51,201 nt of DNA, taken from NCBI GenBank assembly GCA_024404875.1, contig JAKSPK010000013.1, forward strand, positions 1 through 51,201. The letters run 5' to 3'. The position numbers and the translations under genes were made by a program. Every line of letters begins with the position of its first letter. The stretch's first letter is position 1. Origin of the DNA: Oscillospiraceae bacterium. GTDB taxonomy: Bacteria > Bacillota > Clostridia > Oscillospirales > Ruminococcaceae. The notes beneath the pieces are model-generated. The model was not told the DNA's origin, did not search any database, and saw only the letters and a program-made list of their open reading frames with translations. Shown piece by piece: positions 3,001 through 17,042 of this stretch.

Positions 3001-4283
3001 ACGCCGTCATAATCTTTTCCCTTCGGGATCAGGTTATAAACGATAGAATCACCCGAAACGGTTTCCTGTGCCTTGGTCGTTGTTACCTTGGCAGGTGCAT
3101 CGCCGACCTGGATCTCAAGACCATGGAGCGCATAGCTGTACTCATCACCGACGAGCGGAACAACCTTGCACTTGTCTCTTGTATCGCGGACGATCACATA
3201 AGAACCGTCTTTCTCCGGAACCTGGATATTGAACTCATAGACGACAGCGCCGTCAGCAGCCTGGAATTCATCATTACCGCCGAAGCCGTAGAAGACCTGG
3301 CCGCCGTCCTTGGCGTTGTCAGCCTTGCTGACGTTCGCATTCTTTTCATTGATTGTCGGCATGAGCTCATATGCATCGCCCATCTCGGAACCAATGTACT
3401 TACCGCCGTTGCCGGTGACATCAGAGAAGTCAAGGAACATCTGAAGGCCGGAGACCTTTTTGTCGTTCTTGACAGTCCACTGAACAGTAAGTTCTTCGCC
3501 GGCAGCTGCCTGATAGACATTGTTGCCGGTCTGATTTGCCGGAGCAGCGGTGTATTCCTTGCCCTTCGGGATGAGATCATAAATGATCGAGCCGGTGGGG
3601 ATCGGATCACCCGGATCCTGCTGCTTGACAGTTGTTGTCTGCGCAGGATCGTTCTGCTTCGCTGTGGTTGTTACTTCGGGAGCATTTCCGACCTTAACGG
3701 TAAGGCCGTGCATTGTGTAAGAATACTCGTTTCCAACGAGCGGAATGACCTTGCACTTGTCTCTCGTATCTCTGACGATCGAATAATTACCTTCTTTTTC
3801 AGGTGCCTGGACTTCGAACTCATAGAGCACTGCATTGTCGTCAGCCTGGTATACTTCATTACCGCCGAAGCCGTAAAATACCTGACCGCCGTCCTTTGCG
3901 TTCTCAGCCTTGCTGATGTTCGCATTCTTCTCATTAATGGTAGGAATGAGCTCATAAGCATCGCCCATTTCGGAACCAATATACTTACCGCCGTTACCGG
4001 TAAGATCAGAGAAGTCGAGGAACATCTGAAGGCCGGAGACCTTCTGGTCGTTCTTGACAGTCCACTGAATGGTGAAGGTTTCGCCCGGCTCAGCGGTATA
4101 CTGGTTGTTGCCGCTGCCGGTCGCCGCCGTATATGTCTTACCCTTCGGGATCAGATCATATACGATGTCACCGTCAGCTTTGACCTCTGCAGCAGATGCT
4201 GTCATCGGTACAGCAGCAAACGCTCCGAGCAATGAAGTAGCAGCAAGGCACAAGGAAGACAGAGCAGAAATAAGTTTCTTCAT
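1..4283 (-). CDS. scaB: ScaB-like multi-cohesin scaffoldin (3' end beyond window)
   Basis: Secreted structural scaffoldin that binds dockerin-bearing proteins through repeated cohesins. The ATG at 4283 follows AGAAAGGG; residues 1-31 are a signal peptide ending ASA. The frame stays open for 1427 codons to the left edge, so the C-terminus is missing. Four cohesins of one class lie near residues 39-199, 232-394, 412-576 and 593-757 (each begins IxYxLIPKGK and contains QWTVKNDxxVSGLQMF). Four of a second class lie near 768-895, 898-1033, 1037-1165 and 1229-1360 (W.I.K.TVAKGA, TAGFVVEF, GTGYTGEA, LVVVWA). Thr-rich linkers separate modules. Order and the two cohesin classes match R. flavefaciens FD-1 ScaB, where one class binds enzyme dockerins and the other the ScaA dockerin; that specificity is transferred, not shown. 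A dockerin is expected beyond the edge. Confidence 0.9.
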   Translation of the reverse strand, partial: MKKLISALSSLCLAATSLLGAFAAVPMTASAAEVKADGDIVYDLIPKGKTYTAATGSGNNQYTAEPGETFTIQWTVKNDQKVSGLQMFLDFSDLTGNGGKYIGSEMGDAYELIPTINEKNANISKAENAKDGGQVFYGFGGNEVYQADDNAVLYEFEVQAPEKEGNYSIVRDTRDKCKVIPLVGNEYSYTMHGLTVKVGNAPEVTTTAKQNDPAQTTTVKQQDPGDPIPTGSIIYDLIPKGKEYTAAPANQTGNNVYQAAAGEELTVQWTVKNDKKVSGLQMFLDFSDVTGNGGKYIGSEMGDAYELMPTINEKNANVSKADNAKDGGQVFYGFGGNDEFQAADGAVVYEFNIQVPEKDGSYVIVRDTRDKCKVVPLVGDEYSYALHGLEIQVGDAPAKVTTTKAQETVSGDSIVYNLIPKGKDYDGVADNVTGNNVYMAAPGEKITIQWTVKNDKDVSGLQMFFDFSGVTDNGGKYNGSDMGDAYELIPTINEKFANESKATNARDGGQVFYGFGGNEEYKASNNAVIYEFTVTAPEKDGTYSVVQDTRDKCKVIPLVGDAYNFVMHGIDIVVGEAPIDETTTTKQQTVSTDSIIYNLIPKGKEYEKAADNSVGNNGYTATPGEEITVQWTVKNDKKVSGLQMFFDFSDVTENGGKYNGSDMGDAYELIPTINEKYVNTSKAENAKDGGQVFYGFGGNEEYQADNNAVIYEFTINAPEKEGKYVIVQDGRDKCKVIPLVGDAYDFVMHGLEITVADAKTTTTAAENIPAGKTSWTIAKVTAAAGADVKVPVTVEGDEGTGGFVAEFKCDDALTIKGVEWGTGYTGKATINNNELVVVWADEDGADQKANGEIMNILVTAPNAAGEYPVTFKSLEVVNTSGNELTVTKKDGAVIVEGEAGSANWIIGEDTVLPGAEATVPVTVKGDTGTSGFVVEFEYDPALTFTGIEWADGYTGEPTKNEESTDEKAVLVVWAEENGKDIKAADGAVVMNLKFTAPSAAGEYPVTFKSLEVTDTNGVDLNLTKENGKVIVNGVTTTAEPGGNAGWVIGKETVAKGATAKVPVTVTGDPGTAGFVVEFEADPALTFTGFEWGTGYTGEAIVNNDELVVVWASKDGQNQKAAEDAPILYLVFTAPDAAGEYPVTFKNLEAVNRDGSEITIEQTPGAVIVLDETTTTAEVTEAETTTTTEAKADETTTTAEPAADETTTAAATTTADEPVDTITTTPMVIPAGEVGWIIGTETVAKGATAKVPVNVKSDPGTAGFVVEFDADPALTFTGFEWGTGYTGEAIVNNDELVVVWASKEGTNQTAADDAPILYLIFTAPDAVGEYPVTFKNLEVSNTDGSFAETIEQPGAVIVIDDVITTTTAETPDEETTTTEPVVEPGTTTTAEQPEPDETTTTAGPQEGTTTTAAPQEGTTTTAAPQEGT

Positions 4284-4300
4284 CTTTATCCCTTTCTGGA

Positions 4301-4332
4301 TTATGTGCGCGAAGTTACCTCCGCGCACATAA
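4301..4332 (-). promoter_or_regulatory. Perfect inverted repeat between scaA and scaB
   Basis: Arms TTATGTGCGCG (4301-4311) and CGCGCACATAA (4322-4332) form a perfect 11-bp stem with a 10-nt loop. It lies 40 nt after the scaA stop and just before the scaB ribosome site. No U-tract follows in the direction of transcription, so it does not look like a simple terminator. A processing or stabilising hairpin that sets the ScaA:ScaB ratio is possible. Confidence 0.6.
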
Positions 4333-4372
4333 CGCCTTCATATTAAATTGCGAATCAAACGCGTTGCGTCAA

Positions 4373-6130
4373 TTACTTCTTCGGGAGCGACGGAATCAGT
4401 CTTGCCAGGTACTCCTTGATTGCAGTAGAGTCATCAGATGTAATGTTGTTGTCCTTGACGCAGTCTGCATTCTTCTTGCCCTGTGCACTGATATCAGCAG
4501 TCTTTGCGAGGTATCTGTTCAGAAGAACAACGTCGTTGATTCTGACCTGCGTGTCGCAGTTGACGTCGCCGTAGAGAACATCGCCATCACCAGCCGGAGC
4601 AGTGGTGGTCTGCTGCGGAACAGTCGTGGTAACAGTCGTGGTGGTCTGCTTCTCAGGCTCAGCTGTAGTAGTGGTCTCTTCCTGAGTGTCGCCGACAACG
4701 ATGTCGAGGCCATTCAGAACGAAGTCATACTGATCGCCGACGAGCGGGATAACCTTGCACTTGTCTCTGCTGTCCTTCACGATGGAGTAAGTACCATTCT
4801 TGGTCGGAGCAGTGATGTTGAAGTAGTAGATAACTGCATCGTCTTCAGCCTGGAACTCTTCGTTGCCGCCGAAGCCGTAGAAGACCTGGCCGCCGTCCTT
4901 AGCATTCTCAGCCTTGGTGATGCTTGCATTCTTTTCGTTGATGGTCGGGATGAGCTCATAAGCATCGCTCATATCAGAGCCGTTGTACTTACCACCGTTC
5001 TCGGTGATAGCGGAGAAGTCGAAGAACATCTGGAGGCCGGAGACCTTCTGGTCGTTCTTGACAGTCCATGCAACGGTGATATCCTCGCCCGGCTTTGCGT
5101 TATAAACGTTGTTGCCGTTTGCGGTCGTTGCAGCAGTGTAATCCTTGCCGTCCGGAATCAGGTTGTAGACGATTGCATCGCCAGTCGGAACCGGAGCATC
5201 CGGCTTTGCGGTCGTGGTAGTCTTGTCACCCTGGGTAGGAGCGGTGGTTGTTCCTCCCTCAACCGGCTTCGCATCGCCGACGGTGATGGTCAGCTTCTCA
5301 GAAGCGAGCTTGTTTGCGCCGCCGATACCGGTTGCGCCGCTCGTTGCGTAGGTACGCTCGCTCTCCGGGAGCTCCTTGTTGGTCTCAGAATCGAACAGAG
5401 CGGACGGAGTGGTGAGCATATACTCTTTATGATAGACGTCGAACTCATAGGTTCCGTCTGCCAGATCTGCCGGGAGATTGAGGTTGAAGGTAACGATTGC
5501 GTGATCGTATGCCCAGCTCTCAGTCTTTGCCCATGTGAAGACCGGTGTATAATTGTCATAAGCAGGCTTGCCAGCTGCTGCCCATGCCTCATAGGAGTCG
5601 ATATCCTTGGAACCTTCGGTCAGGCCGTACTTAGCAGCGGTGTACTGAACAGCGTGCTTTGCCTGATACATGAAGTTGTAAGCATAGTCAGTGAACATAT
5701 AGGTGCCGGCCTTGAGGTTACCAGCAAACATCTTTGCGCCGAGAATACCGGAATCCAGCGGGCCCGGATCATTCTTGTTGTCGCCAGCCGGCCAAGTGAT
5801 ATCAGAGATCGTGATGCCGTAGTTGCCGAACGAACCTGCATAGTTCGGATACGCCTTCTTGTCCATATCGTAGACAGTACCCTGACCGAGTGTAGCATCG
5901 CCGTTGATCGCCATCTTCAGAGACAGCGTATTGAAACCGGCAGACTGCGGAATATACATTGCGACCGGAACAACATCGCCCGGCTTCGCGGTAACAGCAG
6001 ACTCACCGTTAGAACGGAATGCGACGATTGTCGAATCGACTGTTGCGGCATCCGAGCTGAATGCGAGGGCGCCGCCCATTGCCGTCGCTGCGATTACGAG
6101 CGACGAAAGAGCAGAGATGAATTTCTTCAT
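4373..6130 (-). CDS. scaA: ScaA-like scaffoldin: N-terminal module, cohesin, dockerin
   Basis: Secreted 585-residue scaffoldin. It has a signal peptide (cleavage near residue 28), a divergent N-terminal module (about 30-290, ending ITVGD), a Thr/Pro linker, one cohesin (about 318-480) closely like ScaB cohesins 1-4, a TTTT linker, and a C-terminal dockerin (about 517-583) with Ca-loop-like NCDTQVRINDV and CVKDNNITSDDS. In the ruminococcal model ScaA binds enzymes through its cohesins and docks onto ScaB. The N-terminal module may be a second, divergent cohesin, since ScaA of FD-1 has two. The start follows AAGAAAGGA. It sits between scaC and scaB, in the order known for the sca cluster. Confidence 0.88.
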   Translation of the reverse strand: MKKFISALSSLVIAATAMGGALAFSSDAATVDSTIVAFRSNGESAVTAKPGDVVPVAMYIPQSAGFNTLSLKMAINGDATLGQGTVYDMDKKAYPNYAGSFGNYGITISDITWPAGDNKNDPGPLDSGILGAKMFAGNLKAGTYMFTDYAYNFMYQAKHAVQYTAAKYGLTEGSKDIDSYEAWAAAGKPAYDNYTPVFTWAKTESWAYDHAIVTFNLNLPADLADGTYEFDVYHKEYMLTTPSALFDSETNKELPESERTYATSGATGIGGANKLASEKLTITVGDAKPVEGGTTTAPTQGDKTTTTAKPDAPVPTGDAIVYNLIPDGKDYTAATTANGNNVYNAKPGEDITVAWTVKNDQKVSGLQMFFDFSAITENGGKYNGSDMSDAYELIPTINEKNASITKAENAKDGGQVFYGFGGNEEFQAEDDAVIYYFNITAPTKNGTYSIVKDSRDKCKVIPLVGDQYDFVLNGLDIVVGDTQEETTTTAEPEKQTTTTVTTTVPQQTTTAPAGDGDVLYGDVNCDTQVRINDVVLLNRYLAKTADISAQGKKNADCVKDNNITSDDSTAIKEYLARLIPSLPKK

Positions 6131-6336
6131 GACAACTTAATCCTTTCTTGTCTGACACCGGTTCAGCCGCGTTCCCGGTTCAAACGCATTGTTTATTTGG
6201 TTTTGTTGGGTTTGGTTTCGGCGATTCTCCGTCGGCATTGCTCCCGGCGGAGCCTGCGGCTATATTTTGCCGACCATGAATGTTGCAGTTGATACGCGCC
6301 TTTCGGCCGCATATCACGGAGCATGGAACCGTCAGC
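6131..6336 (-). promoter_or_regulatory. scaC-scaA intergenic region with GNRA hairpin
   Basis: A 206-nt gap. About 20 nt after the scaC stop, 6290-6316 folds on the minus strand into an 11-bp stem with one bulged G, closed by a GAAA tetraloop. No U-run follows. Further on is a smaller GCTCC/GGAGC hairpin near 6240-6255. I see no convincing -35/-10 pair for scaA, so read-through from scaC, shaped by these structures, is likely. Confidence 0.5.
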
Positions 6337-7191
6337 TTACCCGTGCGCCTGCGGTCCCCCGTGGGTGAGTGCTTTGTCAGTGTGTTTCCGGAGCGATGTC
6401 CTCGGCCGGATCTGGATCCTCCGAAGTATCAGCGTTACATCGCACATCGTCAGCACGCCGTCCGACTCACAGTCTGCGTTTGCGTATGCTGCGGCGCTGA
6501 GAGCAAGCTCTTCGTTCAGTGCGCGGTGCAGCAGCACTGCATCCGCTACGGTCAGTTTTCCGTCCAGATCAATATCGCCGTACATAGTAGTGCCGGCTTC
6601 GTTGACCGGTTTCCAGACTGCACCGCTTTTTGCGGTAACCTGACAAGGCTGCATCATATCGTTGTCGTCCAGCCAGCCTGCGGCAATTACTGCATCCGCA
6701 GTATCCCCCGCCGCCGGTACAAGCTCAATCGGGATCTGCGTTCCTGCCGGAACATCCTCCGAAACAGTTCCGCTCACCGTGAAAAAGACTCGTTCCTCTT
6801 TCAGCCAGAAGTCTGCCTTCGCAGCGGTACCCCATCGGATCTTCAGGAAGCCTTCGGTATTTTCATATGTAAATACATCGTTTCCTGTGATGCCGGCGAG
6901 CTTTTCCGCCTTCTGTGCGCCTGTGTCATAAAGCAGTGTCACATCCGTGACTGTCAGAGCAGCAGCATCGTACTTTAGCGCGAACTCCATTGCACACAGT
7001 CCTGTTTCCGGCATCCGTTCCAGCGATACTGATGCGGTAAACCCGCCGTCTGCATCCGCCACAGTCACATCGACCGCTGCCTCCGCTTCCGGAAGATCCG
7101 CCGCGCAGATCCTGACCGGTGCTGTCCCCAGATAACCGCAGGCAAGAAAGCCCGCGAGCAGTCCGAAAACCGCCGCTTTCTGCGCCTTCAT
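6337..7191 (-). CDS. scaC: ScaC-like adaptor scaffoldin: one cohesin plus dockerin
   Basis: A 284-residue secreted protein. Residues 1-31 form a signal peptide, followed by one cohesin-like module (about 37-185, with MEFALKYDAAALTVTDV and FFTVSGTV) and a dockerin (about 203-260: YGDIDLDGKLTVADAVLLHR and NADCESDGVLTMCDVTLILR). In R. flavefaciens ScaC is an adaptor: its dockerin binds the ScaA cohesin and its own cohesin recruits other dockerin proteins. The start has GGAGGAAAGGA just before ATG. The C-terminal tail after the dockerin is basic and unusual. It is the first gene of the operon, behind the promoter at 7478-7506. Confidence 0.85.
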   Translation of the reverse strand: MKAQKAAVFGLLAGFLACGYLGTAPVRICAADLPEAEAAVDVTVADADGGFTASVSLERMPETGLCAMEFALKYDAAALTVTDVTLLYDTGAQKAEKLAGITGNDVFTYENTEGFLKIRWGTAAKADFWLKEERVFFTVSGTVSEDVPAGTQIPIELVPAAGDTADAVIAAGWLDDNDMMQPCQVTAKSGAVWKPVNEAGTTMYGDIDLDGKLTVADAVLLHRALNEELALSAAAYANADCESDGVLTMCDVTLILRRIQIRPRTSLRKHTDKALTHGGPQAHG

Positions 7192-7471
7192 TCCTTTCCT
7201 CCTTCTTTCATGATGATTTCATATACTCCAAGAAACACGCTGATCCGTTCCTTTTCATATACACAGACAAGCCCCCGCTTATGCATTCGGAATCCTGCTT
7301 CCGCCGGCATCCGCACCGGATTCACTGACACGGATTTTGCGCCGGGGCAGTCCCGGAAAAGCCTGTCTATCCTGTCCGTACCTGGTGGTCTGTCCGCGCG
7401 GAGAACGCCCTGCATCCGTACTAATGCACAGCGATCTGCCGACAAATATCCCTTACCCGACAATACGGCTT
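7192..7471 (-). promoter_or_regulatory. 280-nt 5' leader of the sca operon
   Basis: The stretch between the predicted start of transcription and scaC is GC-rich with several short stems (for example CCGGGAC..GCCCCGG). It has no stop in the frame that ends at 7188, overlapping the scaC ATG as ATGA, but the only upstream starts in that frame lack a ribosome site, so I do not call a gene. I recognise no known riboswitch. Confidence 0.45.
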
Positions 7472-7477
7472 ACTACC

Positions 7478-7506
7478 ATTATAATAAACCACTGTCACAA
7501 AGTCAA
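7478..7506 (-). promoter_or_regulatory. Promoter of the sca operon
   Basis: On the minus strand TTGACT (7501-7506), a 17-bp spacer and TATAAT (7478-7483). Transcription would start near 7471 and read scaC, scaA and scaB. Confidence 0.75.
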
Positions 7507-7674
7507 GACTTCAATACCGTTTTTGTGATTATTGATAAATTGAACAAGCGAAAACTATGCAATCCGACAAAAAGAAAGACGCGGCAAAAGTCAGCATTTT
7601 CATCAGCCGGCTTTTACCGCATAAATCCCCGTTCATTTTGATATGTGAGCTATCAATTTTCGGTCAATTTCCGG

Positions 7675-8940
7675 TCATTCCAGGTCGCGGAATTCTGCCG
7701 GAATATTGTTTTCAATGATCGCGTCGATCACACCCTTGCCGAAGTCCTTCGCCGTCTCCGGATAGGCGTGCGTATATGGCAGCGCATGAGCATTCGCAAG
7801 CTCCGTCGTATAGAGATCATACGGATACAGCCGCAGATTTGCAAAGCCCGCATCATAATGCGTAATGACCGGCTTGCACTTGATATCCTCGACCGTTACC
7901 TTACCGGTATCGCCGTGTTTCACAAGATTGAAGCTGTTCATTTCGCCGACCACATTGAAATTATCAGTCTGAGCGCAGATAAAGTTACCCATTGAATAGA
8001 AGACGAAGCCCTGCGTGCCGTCCTCGCGCGGGATATACTCCATTGTCTCCGCGGTATGCGAGTGGGTGCCGAGAATGACATCAGCGCCCCAGCCGACCAG
8101 TTTCCGTGCGAGTTCCTTGACATCATCGCGTACCCAGTGCGTATCTTCAGCGCCCCAGTGGACAGCAACCACGACCGCATCCGCGACTTCCTTTGCACGC
8201 TTGATCTGTCGTTCCATGAGCGCCTCATCCGAGGTCATGCCGACTTTGATTTCCGTATCAGCCGGCAAAGAATAGCCGTTCAGGTGCTCCGCATAGGAGA
8301 GATACGCAATGCGCATCCCCCGGATATACTGCACTCTGAGCGTGTCCTGGTCCTCAGCATTGCGGTAGGCACCGACCGTAAGGATCGGATGCTTCTCCAT
8401 CATGCCGTCCCAGTAATCCATTGAGGAAGCAAGACCAGCGATGCCCTTGTCGAGCATATGGTTATTCGCGGTTGTGAAGATATCGAAGCCGAGATCAACC
8501 ATTGCATCTCCAAGCTCAACGGGGGAGTTGAAGTTAAAGCCGGAGCCGGAGATCTCGTAATCACCGCCGCAGATCAGCGTTTCCTGATTGATGATGGCAA
8601 CATCGGCGGCCTGCACGACCGGCTTGACATTTTCGTAGAGCGGCGCAAAATTATATCCTGTTCCGCCGGCCTGCGCCTGTGCCGCAAGGTATACATAAGT
8701 CTGCACGAGATTATCGCCGACCGCCAGCAGATTAACCGAGATATCTGGCGGCGCCGGCGGCTCGGTAGTCGTGGTGACAACCGTCGTTGAAGTCGCCAGC
8801 GTAACAGCTGAGGTATCCTCGGTCACAGCAGGTTCGATATTTTCAGCGATCCCGCTGCTGCCGGAGCCGCTGCATCCGCTGAAGCCCATTGCAAGACTGA
8901 CCGCGATCAGACCAGCAGGCAGCATTTTTTTCAGATTCAT
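7675..8940 (-). CDS. CapA-family metallophosphatase-like lipoprotein
   Basis: A 421-residue lipoprotein of the CapA (PGA_cap) family, a calcineurin-like fold known from poly-gamma-glutamate capsule loci. The lipobox is FSGC (Cys23); a Thr-rich linker follows, then the domain from about residue 68: LLAVGDNLVQ, INQETLICGG, FDIFTTANNHMLDKG, VVVAVHWGAE and LGTHSHTAETME supply the Asp, Asn and His residues of the metal site. It is anchored outside the cell. No capB/capC partner is present, so a role in capsule is not supported; CapA proteins are widespread in Firmicutes with unknown substrates. It is a separate unit with its own promoter. RBS AGAAAGGAAGAG precedes the ATG. Confidence 0.85.
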   Translation of the reverse strand: MNLKKMLPAGLIAVSLAMGFSGCSGSGSSGIAENIEPAVTEDTSAVTLATSTTVVTTTTEPPAPPDISVNLLAVGDNLVQTYVYLAAQAQAGGTGYNFAPLYENVKPVVQAADVAIINQETLICGGDYEISGSGFNFNSPVELGDAMVDLGFDIFTTANNHMLDKGIAGLASSMDYWDGMMEKHPILTVGAYRNAEDQDTLRVQYIRGMRIAYLSYAEHLNGYSLPADTEIKVGMTSDEALMERQIKRAKEVADAVVVAVHWGAEDTHWVRDDVKELARKLVGWGADVILGTHSHTAETMEYIPREDGTQGFVFYSMGNFICAQTDNFNVVGEMNSFNLVKHGDTGKVTVEDIKCKPVITHYDAGFANLRLYPYDLYTTELANAHALPYTHAYPETAKDFGKGVIDAIIENNIPAEFRDLE

Positions 8941-13793: not shown

Positions 13794-13822
13794 TTGACTT
13801 TTCCATTCATTTGTGCTATACT
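13794..13822 (+). promoter_or_regulatory. Promoter of the VYGPP / radical SAM operon
   Basis: TTGACT (13794-13799), 17-bp spacer, TATACT (13817-13822). Transcription would start near 13829 and read the three genes to the terminator at 15956-15998. Confidence 0.75.
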
Positions 13823-13857
13823 GAAAAAAAGAAAATAGAATCCTGAGGTGACAACTC

Positions 13858-14169
13858 ATGAAAAAAGCAAAAAAATTCGGCCTGGTCTCGGCATTCTGTT
13901 CGGCAATGCTTTCGCTGACTGCCTGTACGCGTCCGGCAAGCGTCTATGGCCCGCCGCCAGAGGATGAATCGAAATACGACCTTAGCTCAGCAGAGGATGT
14001 GCAGGATGTTTACGGGCCGCCGGTCGGCGAAGACACTGAAGTCGATGCCAGCGACGATGAAGCATCGTTGGAAGAATCATACCTCGATCCTGCAGACAAT
14101 ATACCGAGCCTTGTCTACGGCCCGCCGCCTGCACTCGAAGAAAACGCCCCGAAGGTCGTTCCGGAATAA
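13858..14169 (+). CDS. Small acidic lipoprotein with three VYGPP motifs, likely modification target
   Basis: A 103-residue lipoprotein: basic start MKKAKK, hydrophobic stretch, lipobox LTAC with Cys23 as the lipid anchor. The mature part is short, acidic and probably unfolded. It carries VYGPP three times, at 29-33, 51-55 and 86-90, and has no recognisable domain. RBS GAGGTG precedes the ATG. It is the first gene of an operon with a VYGPP dockerin protein and a radical SAM/SPASM enzyme. I infer that Tyr (or its neighbours) in VYGPP is the modified site, which makes this a precursor or substrate protein. No leader-like region, GG site or Cys-rich core of a classical RiPP is seen. A plain surface lipoprotein remains possible. 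Confidence 0.8.
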   Translation: MKKAKKFGLVSAFCSAMLSLTACTRPASVYGPPPEDESKYDLSSAEDVQDVYGPPVGEDTEVDASDDEASLEESYLDPADNIPSLVYGPPPALEENAPKVVPE

Positions 14170-14208
14170 GCCGTCATCCTGTAAAAGCCCTCACTGAAAG
14201 GAGCTGCT

Positions 14209-14820
14209 ATGAAAAAAACGCTTCAAACTGCAATGACCGCTGCCATGTTCGCCGCCTCGCTCGGCATAGGCGCTGAGACTGCCTCCGCATCACAAACCGT
14301 TTCATTCAGCACCGCTTCCGTTGAGGATCTCATGAACGCTACAACCGGCGAACCTGTCGATGTATATGGCCCGCCTGCGGCATTCTTCACCGAAACCATC
14401 CCTTCGGCCACCACAGCCGCTGAACCAGCCGCTCCGCCTGTGGAAACAACCGAACCGTACTACGATGAGCCGATAATCGGCGGCGTCATTCCGCTGCCGA
14501 CAATGGATCTGGACGGCGACGGCCGGTTCGATGCACGCGATGTCACCCGCCTGAAGCAGAGTCTGATGCATAATTCCGATTCAGGCTATAGCCATATATT
14601 CTCTTCTTTAGCCGATTACAACTACGACGGCATCACCGATAAGCAGGATCTTATCCAGATGATCCTGGAGCTGACCGGTATGCCGGAGTGGAAAACGGAG
14701 GATCCCGCCGTGACAACGACCGTGACCGGAACCGCGTTTCCTGCGACCGAAACAACGATCTTCTCGGAAAATCTCCCGCAGCCGGTGTACGGTCCGATCG
14801 GCTGGTACGATTCTGAATAA
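14209..14820 (+). CDS. Secreted dockerin protein with two VYGP motifs, likely modification target
   Basis: A 203-residue secreted protein: signal peptide 1-27 (ASA), VYGPP at 52-56, Thr/Pro linker, a dockerin-like pair of Ca loops (DLDGDGRFDARD at 100-111 and DYNYDGITDKQD at 136-147), a Thr-rich linker, and VYGPI at 193-197 near the C-terminus. Both loops keep the acidic residues at positions 1, 3, 5 and 12, so they should bind calcium. A dockerin would attach the protein to a cohesin such as those at 1-7191. The motif shared with the preceding lipoprotein, which is otherwise unrelated, marks it as a second substrate of the enzyme at 14836. RBS AAAGGAG precedes the ATG; the next ribosome site begins just after its stop. 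Confidence 0.85.
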   Translation: MKKTLQTAMTAAMFAASLGIGAETASASQTVSFSTASVEDLMNATTGEPVDVYGPPAAFFTETIPSATTAAEPAAPPVETTEPYYDEPIIGGVIPLPTMDLDGDGRFDARDVTRLKQSLMHNSDSGYSHIFSSLADYNYDGITDKQDLIQMILELTGMPEWKTEDPAVTTTVTGTAFPATETTIFSENLPQPVYGPIGWYDSE

Positions 14821-14835
14821 TGACGGAGGATCAAA

Positions 14836-15912
14836 ATGCTTGCCCCGAAACTGAAAGAAAAAAATATGCAGCGTCTTGCCATTTACCGCGAGGGACTGAA
14901 GGTCATGCCGCAGCTCCGCAACCTCTTTCTGGAGCTGACGCTCCGCTGCAATGAGCGATGTCTGCATTGCGGAAGCTCATGCGGCGATGTGCCTTCAGAT
15001 GAAATGTCGCTCGAACAATACAAGGCCTTCCTCGATCAGATCAAGGAGGATTTCGGCACATCCGGCTTCATGCTTTGCATCACCGGCGGCGAACCGCTGC
15101 TGCGGAAGGATTTCTTCGAAATCATGGGCTATGCAAATGAGCTGGGCTTCAACTGGGGCATGACGAGCAACGGCACGCTCATTACCGAAGAGGTTGCGCA
15201 CAAGCTTCTCGATTGCGGCATGAAAACAATCTCGATCAGCCTTGACGGTCTGCCCGCAACGCATGATGCCTTCCGCCGCACGCCCGGCGGCTGGGAAAAG
15301 GGGATGCAGGGCGTACAGAATCTGATCAAGGTCGGCGGCTTCCAGGCAATCCAGGTCACGACCGTCGTGACGCATCAGAATATCGTTGAGCTGGATGCAC
15401 TTTATGAAATATTCAAGGATATTGATATTGATTCGTGGCGCGTCATCAATATGGATCCGATCGGCAGGGCAAAGGCGCATCCGGAGCTGCTGCTGACGAA
15501 AGACGATTATCGGACAATGTTCGAGTTTATCCGCAATAAGCGGATCGGGGGTGAACCTGTCTGCTACGGGTGCAGCCACTATCTCGGCATGGACTATGAG
15601 CGCGAAGTGCGCGACTGGTATTTCCTATGCACCGCCGGACTTTATACGGCGAGCATTACCGTCAGCGGCGATATTATTGCCTGCCTTGATATTGAGCGGC
15701 GTCCGGAGTTTGTGCAGGGCAATATTTTTGAAGATCGTTTCAAGAATGTCTGGGAAAGCAGATTTCAGATTTTCCGGAAGGATCTTGCACTCGAAAACGA
15801 AAAATGCCGTGCATGCAGCGAAGCAAAATTCTGTCACGGCGGCGCCTATCATACATGGGACTTTGATAACAAATGTCCGCAGGTCTGCTTCAAGGATGTC
15901 CTCTTTGAATAA
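14836..15912 (+). CDS. Radical SAM/SPASM peptide maturase
   Basis: A 358-residue radical SAM enzyme. The SAM-binding 4Fe-4S motif is CNERCLHC (Cys38, 42, 45). GGEPLLRKDF binds the SAM amino group and ISLDGLPATHD follows as in the family. The C-terminal SPASM region has many cysteines (243, 246, 265, 283, 324, 327, 333, 347, 351), enough for two auxiliary clusters. SPASM enzymes modify ribosomal peptides (sactipeptides, PQQ, mycofactocin, tyramine excision at XYG sites). With two VYGP proteins upstream in the same operon, Tyr chemistry on VYG is the natural guess. It may belong to the TIGRFAMs FibroRumin class, known from Fibrobacter and Ruminococcus; I cannot check. GGAGG precedes the ATG. 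No protease or transporter is linked: the substrates use Sec export. Confidence 0.9.
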   Translation: MLAPKLKEKNMQRLAIYREGLKVMPQLRNLFLELTLRCNERCLHCGSSCGDVPSDEMSLEQYKAFLDQIKEDFGTSGFMLCITGGEPLLRKDFFEIMGYANELGFNWGMTSNGTLITEEVAHKLLDCGMKTISISLDGLPATHDAFRRTPGGWEKGMQGVQNLIKVGGFQAIQVTTVVTHQNIVELDALYEIFKDIDIDSWRVINMDPIGRAKAHPELLLTKDDYRTMFEFIRNKRIGGEPVCYGCSHYLGMDYEREVRDWYFLCTAGLYTASITVSGDIIACLDIERRPEFVQGNIFEDRFKNVWESRFQIFRKDLALENEKCRACSEAKFCHGGAYHTWDFDNKCPQVCFKDVLFE

Positions 15913-15955
15913 TGTCGGCAGAGCTGACAGCTATTTCTCACGACATCGTTTCGCA

Positions 15956-15998
15956 GCGCGGCGTGTTCCGTCAAAAACGGAATGCGCCGCGCTTCTTT
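15956..15998 (+). terminator. Terminator of the VYGPP operon
   Basis: A long GC-rich stem (AGCGCGGCG..TTCCGT with ACGGAA..CGCCGCGC) closed by CAAAA, followed by TTCTTT. Confidence 0.85.
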
Positions 15999-16006
15999 GA
16001 TTTGTG

Positions 16007-16084
16007 TATTTCGATGAATTTCTAAATACCTGTTGACATTCTGCCGAAAATGTGCTATATTGTATTTAGACGGAAATCTAAATA
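16007..16084 (+). promoter_or_regulatory. sdpR-like promoter flanked by two identical-layout operators
   Basis: Promoter TTGACA (16033-16038), 17-bp spacer, TATATT (16056-16061). Operator 1 at 16007-16028 is TATTTCGA-6 nt-TCTAAATA, just upstream of -35. Operator 2 at 16063-16084 is TATTTAGA-6 nt-TCTAAATA, just after -10. Both have 8-6-8 architecture, 56 bp apart. They fit autorepression by the ArsR-type protein encoded next. Confidence 0.75.
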
Positions 16085-16111: not shown

Positions 16112-16390
16112 GTGAAGGATATCTGGGGTGCGCTGGCCGACCCGACAAGGCGCGAGATCCTCACCATGCTGCAAAGCCGCGATATGACCGCTGGTGAGAT
16201 CACCGACTGCTTCGAGATCTCCGGCGCAACAGTCTCACATCACCTGAAAATCCTGCGGGAGGCCGGACTTGTGACGGCCGTCAAGGAAAAACAGACCATT
16301 ACCTACAGCCTCAACACGACCGTATTGCAGGATTTCATGAAAAACATTTCTTCGTTCTTTGGGAGAAAGGAGGCCGGAAATGAAGAATAA
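16112..16390 (+). CDS. ArsR-family repressor, SdpR-like
   Basis: A 92-residue winged-helix repressor of the ArsR/SdpR type: LADPTRREILTML, then the recognition helix ISGATVSHHLKILREAGLV and wing VKEKQTITYSLN. No Cys metal site is visible, as in SdpR. It starts with GTG after AAAGGAGG. It overlaps the next gene, an SdpI-like membrane protein; in Bacillus subtilis SdpI sequesters SdpR at the membrane when the SdpC toxin is present. Likely represses its own operon through the two operators at 16007-16084. Confidence 0.9.
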   Translation: MKDIWGALADPTRREILTMLQSRDMTAGEITDCFEISGATVSHHLKILREAGLVTAVKEKQTITYSLNTTVLQDFMKNISSFFGRKEAGNEE

Positions 16391-17042
16391 GCTCACAATC
16401 ACACTCATTCTGCTGGCGGCAGTCAATCTGATCCTGTCCGTCATTTACTTCGTCCGTCTGCCGGAAACGGTTCCGACACATTTTGATGCGCAAGGCATCT
16501 GCGACGGTATGGGCAGCAAGGGCGCCTATCTGATCCTCAGCTTTCTGCCGCTGCTCTTTGCAGCAATCATCCCGCTGAGCATGAAATTTGCAAAAAATGC
16601 CGAGCGCAACCGCAAGGTGATTGCGGTCACGGCATCGGCACTCTGTGTTTTCTTTATCGCCTTCAACTGGTTCATGCTGACAGTCGTTGCGGGCAGCGGC
16701 GCACAGATCGGCGACGCGCTCCCGCCTGCATTTGCATGGCCGCTGCTGATCGGCATGACAGCGCTGTTCACCGTTCTCGGCAATTATATTCCTCTCGCGC
16801 AGCCGAACCGCACAATCGGTATCCGGCTCCCGTGGACGCTGAACAATGACACCTGCTGGAAGCTGACACACCGGTTCACCGGCAGACTGCTCGTTTTCGG
16901 CGGCACTGTCACGCTTGCCGCCGTCACGGTCATGATGCTGCTGAAAGCGCCTGCGATCGCCGGCATCATCACAGTCACCGTGTTCATCTCGGCAGTGACG
17001 GTCGGCTCATCGGTCTATGCATATCAGCACAGAAACGGCTGA
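16380..17042 (+). CDS. SdpI-family integral membrane protein
   Basis: A 220-residue protein of the SdpI / DUF1648 type with about six hydrophobic segments. The N-terminal part shows the DUF1648 motif LPETVPTHFDAQGICDGMGSK; a later part has PLAQPNRTIGIRLPWTL, then W..THR (WKLTHRFTGR), typical of SdpI. Members give immunity to the SdpC-type toxin or act as signal receptors for SdpR. The start at 16380 overlaps the repressor by 11 nt and follows AGAAAGGAGG. No toxin gene is visible nearby. The gene ends 3 nt from a convergent peptidase gene, with no room for a terminator. Confidence 0.85.
   Translation: MKNKLTITLILLAAVNLILSVIYFVRLPETVPTHFDAQGICDGMGSKGAYLILSFLPLLFAAIIPLSMKFAKNAERNRKVIAVTASALCVFFIAFNWFMLTVVAGSGAQIGDALPPAFAWPLLIGMTALFTVLGNYIPLAQPNRTIGIRLPWTLNNDTCWKLTHRFTGRLLVFGGTVTLAAVTVMMLLKAPAIAGIITVTVFISAVTVGSSVYAYQHRNG

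Follow-up and report, generated by a model that had tools for sequence, protein, structure and literature searches.

What would a radical S-adenosylmethionine (SAM) enzyme with a SPASM domain be doing at the end of an operon whose other two genes encode full-size, apparently exported proteins, when such enzymes are familiar chiefly as maturases of peptides? The question is raised by a locus at positions 13794 to 15998 of a stretch of 51,201 nucleotides (referred to below as the window) of contig JAKSPK010000013.1 from an Oscillospiraceae bacterium, in which both partner proteins carry the motif VYGPP. The answer favoured here, to which as a whole a probability of roughly 40% may be given, is a tag-directed, splicease-like modification of full-size proteins: the operon would encode a cytoplasmic radical SAM/SPASM enzyme together with two of its substrates, and the enzyme would recognise a short, portable tag in flexible parts of such proteins. 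Its parts differ in strength. That the enzyme modifies the YG of the tag on full-size proteins is, on the sequence evidence, very probable; that the product is a splicease-type ketoamide, formed by excision of tyramine, is a much more tentative proposal.

The YGPP tag and its enzyme

All three genes lie on the forward strand. The first (13858..14169, found by open reading frame (ORF) and motif search) encodes a putative lipoprotein substrate of 103 residues, having a lipobox-like LTAC at residues 20-23 (by eye), an acidic linker and three VYGPP sites (13942..13956; 14008..14022, in the context EDVQDVYGPP; and 14113..14127). The second putative substrate (14209..14820, 203 residues) has a signal-like N-terminus (again by eye) and a dockerin type I domain (14503..14667; 28 bits for the Dockerin_1 profile against a cut-off of 22.9), which lies between a VYGPP site (14362..14376) and a degenerate C-terminal site, VYGPI (14785..14799, in PQPVYGPIGWY); in register with the latter, one paralogue in each of L021 and L022 has VYGPP, and others have DYGPI or AYGPI. 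The third gene (14836..15912) encodes the TIGR04133-like enzyme of 358 residues.

The company that the motif keeps is best seen among relatives, which were drawn from 148 genomes of the family (7 enzyme-positive at E 1e-60, this one included), from a scan that took one genome for each species (33 loci) and from 398 genomes of the phylum (2 positive, again counting this one), so that the system is evidently patchy. Across 41 locus rows (the window, L015-L053 and L098, with L015/L035 and L017/L040 as duplicates), 38 have a YGPP-containing ORF upstream of the enzyme on the same strand. By position, YGPP occurs in 91 of 423 upstream ORFs, in one of 363 downstream and in none of 1063 antisense, the sole downstream case (L041) being the substrate of a second enzyme copy in a tandem unit. 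In that locus (4375-8014), where substrate and enzyme genes are repeated as two tandem units, YGT repeats, VYGTMPATE among them, are also present in the dockerin proteins.

Chance as the origin of the motif is ruled out by the count of sites in the genome, by shuffling of the substrates and by the invariance of Y and G. The organism's own genome (2.37 Mb, 87% complete) holds eight matches to TAYGGNCCNCC, the DNA pattern that encodes YGPP, and four of these are within the operon. The other four fall in a GNAT acetyltransferase, a RuvB-like protein (LLYGPPGLGKT), a CotH-like protein (GPPWDFDLAFGN) and a frame of 39 codons; the RuvB-like and CotH-like names, as also the PPK-like one used below, were read from sequence, and, the acetyltransferase aside, these sites look ordinary or empty. 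On a comparison of coordinates, none of the four is in frame with a dockerin match. With 76 dockerin matches in its genome at E 0.01, the organism may be a fibre degrader of the cellulosome type (cohesins were outside that search).

The substrate proteins together contain 224 YGPP sites, against a mean of 0.37 and a maximum of 3 in 200 shuffles. In the 90 distinct substrates there are 221 YGPP, no xGPP and no YxPP (shuffled means 8.6 and 4.9), 5 YG[not P]P, which is no excess over the shuffled 3.5, and 29 YGP[not P] against 3.0 shuffled; substrates were picked by having YGPP, which favours that form in these counts, though further sites in each protein were free to lose any residue. The prolines of the tag thus vary while Tyr and Gly are constant, as would be expected if YG is the reacting dipeptide. 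Over 133 non-redundant sites the flanks favour P at -4 (4.5-fold), Q at -3 (43/133, 10-fold), V, L or I at -1 and F at +6 (44/133, 11-fold), the residue before YG being V, L, I, A or others. The tag is best written P-Q-x-[VLI]-Y-G-P-P-x-x-F, in which the positions are preferences and Y-G alone looks absolute; degenerate sites often retain the PQP context (PQPDYGPIGWY).

When 58 substrate rows of the 91 are aligned (38 of the 58 match Dockerin_1 at E 0.001), M1, K2, Y, G, P and P are left as the only nearly invariant residues, so that an earlier note on this DNA, made from its letters alone, was nearly right in stating that the two substrates share nothing beyond the motif, M1 and K2 being the exceptions. 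Among the nearest relatives, six aligned dockerin proteins retain YG at both sites; in eight lipoproteins whole sites are gained and lost, and the first two common sites retain YG. Co-occurrence and Y/G invariance together bear out this much of that note's proposal: the association of the enzyme is with a YG-centred tag on full-size proteins, and not with a small precursor of a ribosomally synthesised and post-translationally modified peptide (RiPP).

Tagged proteins away from the operon

In one genome (G096, represented by L017/L040) the enzyme, single-copy at E 1e-60, lies on a contig (C80) that has none of the genome's 18 TAYGGNCCNCC sites. Nine of the 18 are shared among five proteins of dockerin type, encoded on four other contigs (those in L129 and L130 exceed the Dockerin_1 cut-off, that in L138 scores 18.4 against 22.9, and two in L131 were outside the scan), three lie in other proteins, of which two look PPK-like and RuvB-like, and six fall outside any ORF of 40 codons. 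With YGPP missing from the enzyme's contig and present in dockerin-type proteins elsewhere, the enzyme appears to act in trans here, a reading that covered, among 15 genomes, all 18 sites of this one, those in the stretches fetched from a second (G071) and 30 loci. At L040 (6115-8070) and L042 (6133-8022), where no YGPP gene is near, the enzyme is followed by a protease, papain-like by eye, whose end is dockerin-like.

A search of the organism's own genome for further tagged proteins, which the earlier note had proposed, was rewarded outside the operon by the GNAT acetyltransferase (PF00583), in which a GGGGG ribosome-binding sequence is followed by MMIHAKSDEPVMNEEITASSVQLVYGPPVMKG ahead of the domain; in the other tagged copies examined, too, a Shine-Dalgarno-like stretch precedes a start upstream of the tag. 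The site was first read as chance, a reading dropped after comparison of orthologues. These were sought in 21 genomes and found in 14 (12 distinct), and the protein is tagged in 9 of 12 enzyme-positive genomes, the organism's own included. Among enzyme-negative genomes (no match at E 1e-60 among the 148 of the family, the acetyltransferase draw being taken as the same set from its handles) it is tagged in none of the 24 that have it, one of these being a C-terminal fragment; Fisher's test for 9/12 against 0/23 gives p 3e-6, with no correction for relatedness. The closest enzyme-negative orthologues show 62-65% identity, as close as the tagged one of G700 (60%). In two orthologues (L159, L162) the tagged N-terminal extension also has two zinc-ribbon-like modules (by eye).

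A second intracellular carrier, the purine nucleoside phosphorylase (351.5 bits) of G071, begins MKLFKNKEFSPDEDIQDVYGPP, an N-terminus comparable to the AEDVQDVYGPP of the window lipoprotein, and has a second tag, VQLIYGPPEM. Searching with a DNA pattern for the tag gave matches in 4 of the 148 genomes: the enzyme-positive pair, the organism's own (G000) and G071, match at the acetyltransferase and phosphorylase tags (Fisher p 0.011), and the enzyme-negative pair, G140 and G010, match in frames that were taken by eye for noise (111 and 195 codons). A flank matrix made from operon sites only places the intracellular and the G096 sites above background YGPP (p 0.0012 and 0.0007), the test sets being hand-picked and of 11, 9 and 14 sequence windows. 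The best single score, 13.86, falls in the background set, in a G071 zinc-ribbon protein with CIYGPPPVRR; this protein resembles the gene beside the enzyme in L228, and may be a real target misplaced in the background. L228 itself (4003-4983) is an IMG/VR contig, likely bacterial (pheS/pheT-like ORFs lie downstream, by eye), in which the enzyme is 60% identical and the zinc-ribbon-like neighbour (Pfam match below cut-off) carries two [IL]YGSP, its CIYGPPPVRR relative in G071 being at L147.

The presence of the tag on other proteins of related bacteria, some of them intracellular, suggests a natural, portable protein-labelling system. The surface or cellulosome decoration first envisaged for this operon is in part retained, in that lipoproteins and dockerin proteins do carry the tag, and in part too narrow, since intracellular enzymes carry it too.

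Enzyme family and the proposed reaction at Tyr-Gly

The enzyme exceeds the cut-offs of PF04055 (Radical_SAM, 77.3 bits) and PF13186 (SPASM, 35.5 bits) and, with its CxxxCxxC (C38, C42 and C45, for the radical SAM cluster; 14947..14970) and SPASM region (C265 to C351; 15628..15888), belongs to the radical SAM/SPASM superfamily. Twelve cysteines are invariant across 23 aligned enzymes (C38, 42, 45, 49, 81, 246, 265, 283, 324, 327, 333 and 351), in agreement with the earlier count of at least twelve of cluster type. A confident AlphaFold2 model (predicted local distance difference test score 91.0) has one helix N-terminal to the barrel, and the roughly 28 residues there are too few for a fused RiPP recognition element (RRE).

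Of 76 NCBIfam families the best match is TIGR04133 (rSAM_w_lipo), at 282.6 bits, so that its cut-off of 425 is not reached. The FibroRumin class (TIGR04136, also a radical SAM peptide maturase), to which the earlier note thought the enzyme might belong, is not supported: it is not among the best 25 of the 76 matches, the 25th of which scores 67.6 bits. In a tree of 26 rows (midpoint-rooted, a small sample with two very long rows) the YGPP enzymes (thirteen rows) group at 96/93 and join three TIGR04133 rows at 98/97, and these branch at 97/96 with a Nostoc TIGR04103 protein, whose branch also holds an Aureibacter protein (48% identical to it) and an Agathobacter protein; MftC, NirJ and others lie apart. 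By sequence, then, the enzyme represents a branch of TIGR04133 in the Clostridia that stays under the family's threshold.

Three TIGR04133 members above the cut-off (451, 617 and 608 bits) come from plasmid records, besides which a wider search for such loci gave nothing. The lipoproteins beside them, NELCEYGTPSADYQVKG (L055, downstream of the enzyme, and outside the TIGR04134 scan), EIPCEYGSPHANFQIKG (L056) and TLTSCYGMPENYYSIKG (L054), have YGxP motifs (CEYGTP, CEYGSP, SCYGMP) within one or two residues of the lipid Cys. The TIGR04133/TIGR04134 system of Bacteroidota and Treponema is thus the closest known relative, being the best family, the sister in the tree, and similarly partnered by a lipoprotein; it differs in that the window enzyme is below the family cut-off, the window lipoprotein has no NCBIfam match at E 1 and the genome no TIGR04134 match at E 10, and in that the YGPP system has several tags per protein, dockerin carriers, and carriers in trans and inside the cell.

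The two groups also have in common a variant SPASM domain, in which CxG[GDN][ASG]xH replaces CxGGC, whereas the Nostoc, Agathobacter, Aureibacter and MftC rows have a second SPASM Cys (Cxx-GC); the NirJ and TIGR04347 rows also lack that Cys, but have no such His. C246 (in Y-[GS]-C) is likewise common to YGPP and TIGR04133 enzymes and absent from the Nostoc, Aureibacter and MftC rows, the Agathobacter row having a Cys in this column. Going by the ligand scheme of anSME, the Cys that is lacking here would belong to the first auxiliary cluster, where C246 or His339 may stand in for it; in this the enzyme would differ from the spliceases.

It is nevertheless to the spliceases (nif11-class maturase 3, TIGR04103, of which we take PlpX to be a member) that the proposed chemistry looks. 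PlpX excises tyramine from Xaa-Tyr-Gly together with PlpY, an RRE protein (PMC11002830). PlpXY acts naturally at MYG and LYG, and has been used in unrelated full-size proteins with ten-residue tags of the type PIRPxYGLPI, although most listed FtsZ positions failed (PMC10533398). Points of likeness are the neighbouring branch of the tree, the action of PlpXY in full-size proteins through a short tag, and an x-Tyr-Gly target with variable x and, in the tag sequences, invariant YG. To these may be added the Nostoc TIGR04103 protein (853 bits), which adjoins a Nif11-leader precursor ending GGRGSIALYGLPPELF (ALYGLPPELF, thus containing LYGLPPELF); a 71-residue ORF 3' of that enzyme has no family match. 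The set examined was this one TIGR04103 record and six relatives of less than 60% identity, with the Aureibacter and Agathobacter loci read, and a further search for spliceotide precursors gave only 20 distant phage stretches. On the Aureibacter plasmid (L203, 1141-3344) three small DUF1843 proteins precede the radical SAM protein and a methyltransferase.

On this model a 5'-deoxyadenosyl radical would set off the release of tyramine from x-Tyr-Gly (a change of -135.0757 Da for each site), the attack being at Tyr and taking place in the cytoplasm, for lipoproteins and dockerin proteins before export; on the N-terminally tagged acetyltransferase and nucleoside phosphorylase the modification would remain inside the cell permanently. 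The product would be an alpha-keto-beta-amino residue of Val or Leu attached to Gly-Pro-Pro, so that the protein would present a mildly electrophilic group. The broadest form of the idea, in which one enzyme installs an electrophilic alpha-ketoamide (or other YG-derived group) at the YGPP of unrelated exported and intracellular proteins, as general labelling and not as a RiPP pathway, is slightly more doubtful.

A number of observations weigh against this model. The enzyme scores only 118.9 bits against the TIGR04103 cut-off of 725, the splicease comparison drawn in the earlier note gaining its support from the tree, the Nostoc precursor and the invariant YG; its SPASM ligands are unlike those of the Nostoc row (the second Cys of CxGGC, retained there, is gone, C246 is present and an invariant His is added); the Nostoc YGLPP is one residue longer than YGPP, and one such precursor with the tags of one paper is thin support for a common site. 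Nif11 or NHLP leader peptides are absent. PlpX works with its RRE partner (PMC11002830), and no counterpart is found here, either fused to the enzyme or as a recurrent neighbour: a conserved partner gene, RRE or protease, was considered and rejected, as no third gene recurs within 6 kb across the loci (the rest of the genome lay outside that search), and most ORF clusters that occur in at least four loci are explained by the enzyme gene read antisense or out of frame, one seven-locus group being on both strands. The case that the earlier note said would refute it, an enzyme kept where the motif is lost, does occur, at L017/L040 and L042, and L228, which is not one of the 41 rows and came to light afterwards, has an upstream zinc-ribbon protein with two YGSP and no YGPP; for G096 the tagged proteins in trans supply an answer. 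Finally, besides the relatedness left uncorrected above, the acetyltransferase is untagged in enzyme-positive G697, G698 and G706 (and in G642, of undefined enzyme status), and a tagged intracellular enzyme misfits any purely surface role.

Other radical chemistry at the same tag is a serious contender, about as likely as the favoured model: the product might be an epimer, or the Tyr might be oxidised or cross-linked through its ring to Pro or another neighbour (giving a three-residue cyclophane). Where short motifs are repeated, SPASM enzymes have often been proposed as cross-linkers (PMC9062424, which lists new SPASM pathways and in whose abstract and section 4 YGPP is not named), the ligand differences just described would fit, and the best solved Foldseek matches of the model, SkfB, SuiB, BlsE and anSME, are of mixed chemistry. 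Against it, the nearest branch of the tree holds the TIGR04103 protein. The cyclophane motifs of triceptide maturases are of the form aromatic-x-x with the middle residue free, whereas in the 90 substrates the middle residue is always Gly, and position +2 may also be A, I or S (T, M or L in the TIGR04133 and Nostoc neighbours). MftC (TIGR03962, 145.3 bits) acts on a Val-Tyr pair, and two MftA sequences end GVY; it was dropped as first choice of analogue because the tree places it outside and the YGPP sites are internal, MftC working with MftB on the C-terminal Tyr of a short peptide.

It is unlikely that YGPP merely docks an enzyme that modifies some other residue nearby: the span of about ten residues (P-4, Q-3, [VLI]-1, F+6) is indeed more than one reacting residue needs, but the 58 aligned substrates offer no other nearly invariant residue besides M1 and K2, and proteins with several tags retain several copies of YG itself. 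An alternative in which YGPP serves for sorting or anchoring, or is simply low in complexity, and has no connection with the enzyme, whose target would be something else, is very improbable, for although its sites lie in Thr/Glu/Pro-rich linkers of secreted proteins and ordinary RuvB-like, PPK-like and CotH-like proteins also have YGPP, the enzyme and tag go together in cis (38/41 loci) and in trans (G096), intracellular enzymes carry the tag, and the acetyltransferases of 24 enzyme-negative genomes do not.

Borders of the operon and possible use of the tag

The promoter and terminator that the earlier note drew around the three genes were recovered, with the genes and motifs themselves, by ORF, motif and consensus scans. 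On the forward strand, the promoter-like site (TTGACT-17-TATACT, TG ahead of the second hexamer; 13794..13822) matches the consensus at 10/12 positions, and the terminator-like hairpin (15955..15993) has 17 pairs and a T-rich tail; both are consensus matches alone, in a region with 5 promoter-like sites against a shuffled mean of 2.3 and 7 terminator-like sites against 2.7. Directly 3' of the operon (16112-17042) are an SdpR-family autorepressor (115 bits, cut-off 100) and an SdpI-family membrane protein, a pair of immunity type, for which a separate promoter-like site is present at 16033.

As to function, covalent capture or protease inhibition by the surface and cellulosome proteins would be a guess. 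Dockerin-bearing protease inhibitors are known. Taken with the protease-inhibiting use of the ketoamide (PMC11002830), this suggests a warhead on surface proteins; for the enzymes tagged inside the cell a different role is required, for instance covalent attachment.

In the openly licensed PubMed Central literature no paper was found for VYGPP, for radical SAM with YGPP, for TIGR04133, for TIGR04134 or its lipoprotein name, or for FibroRumin. The TIGR04133/TIGR04134 pair, named yet undescribed there, now becomes directly testable, with the modified dipeptide predicted, and one radical SAM/SPASM enzyme is tied to a tag of about ten residues on 91 full-size protein rows in cis, plus proteins in trans. 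If the reaction is splicease-like, the tag could serve as a leader-free tool, and bacteria of rumen and gut would be using, on their own surface and metabolic proteins, the same group that chemists already put to use in bioorthogonal labelling (PMC10533398) and in the inhibition of proteases (PMC11002830).

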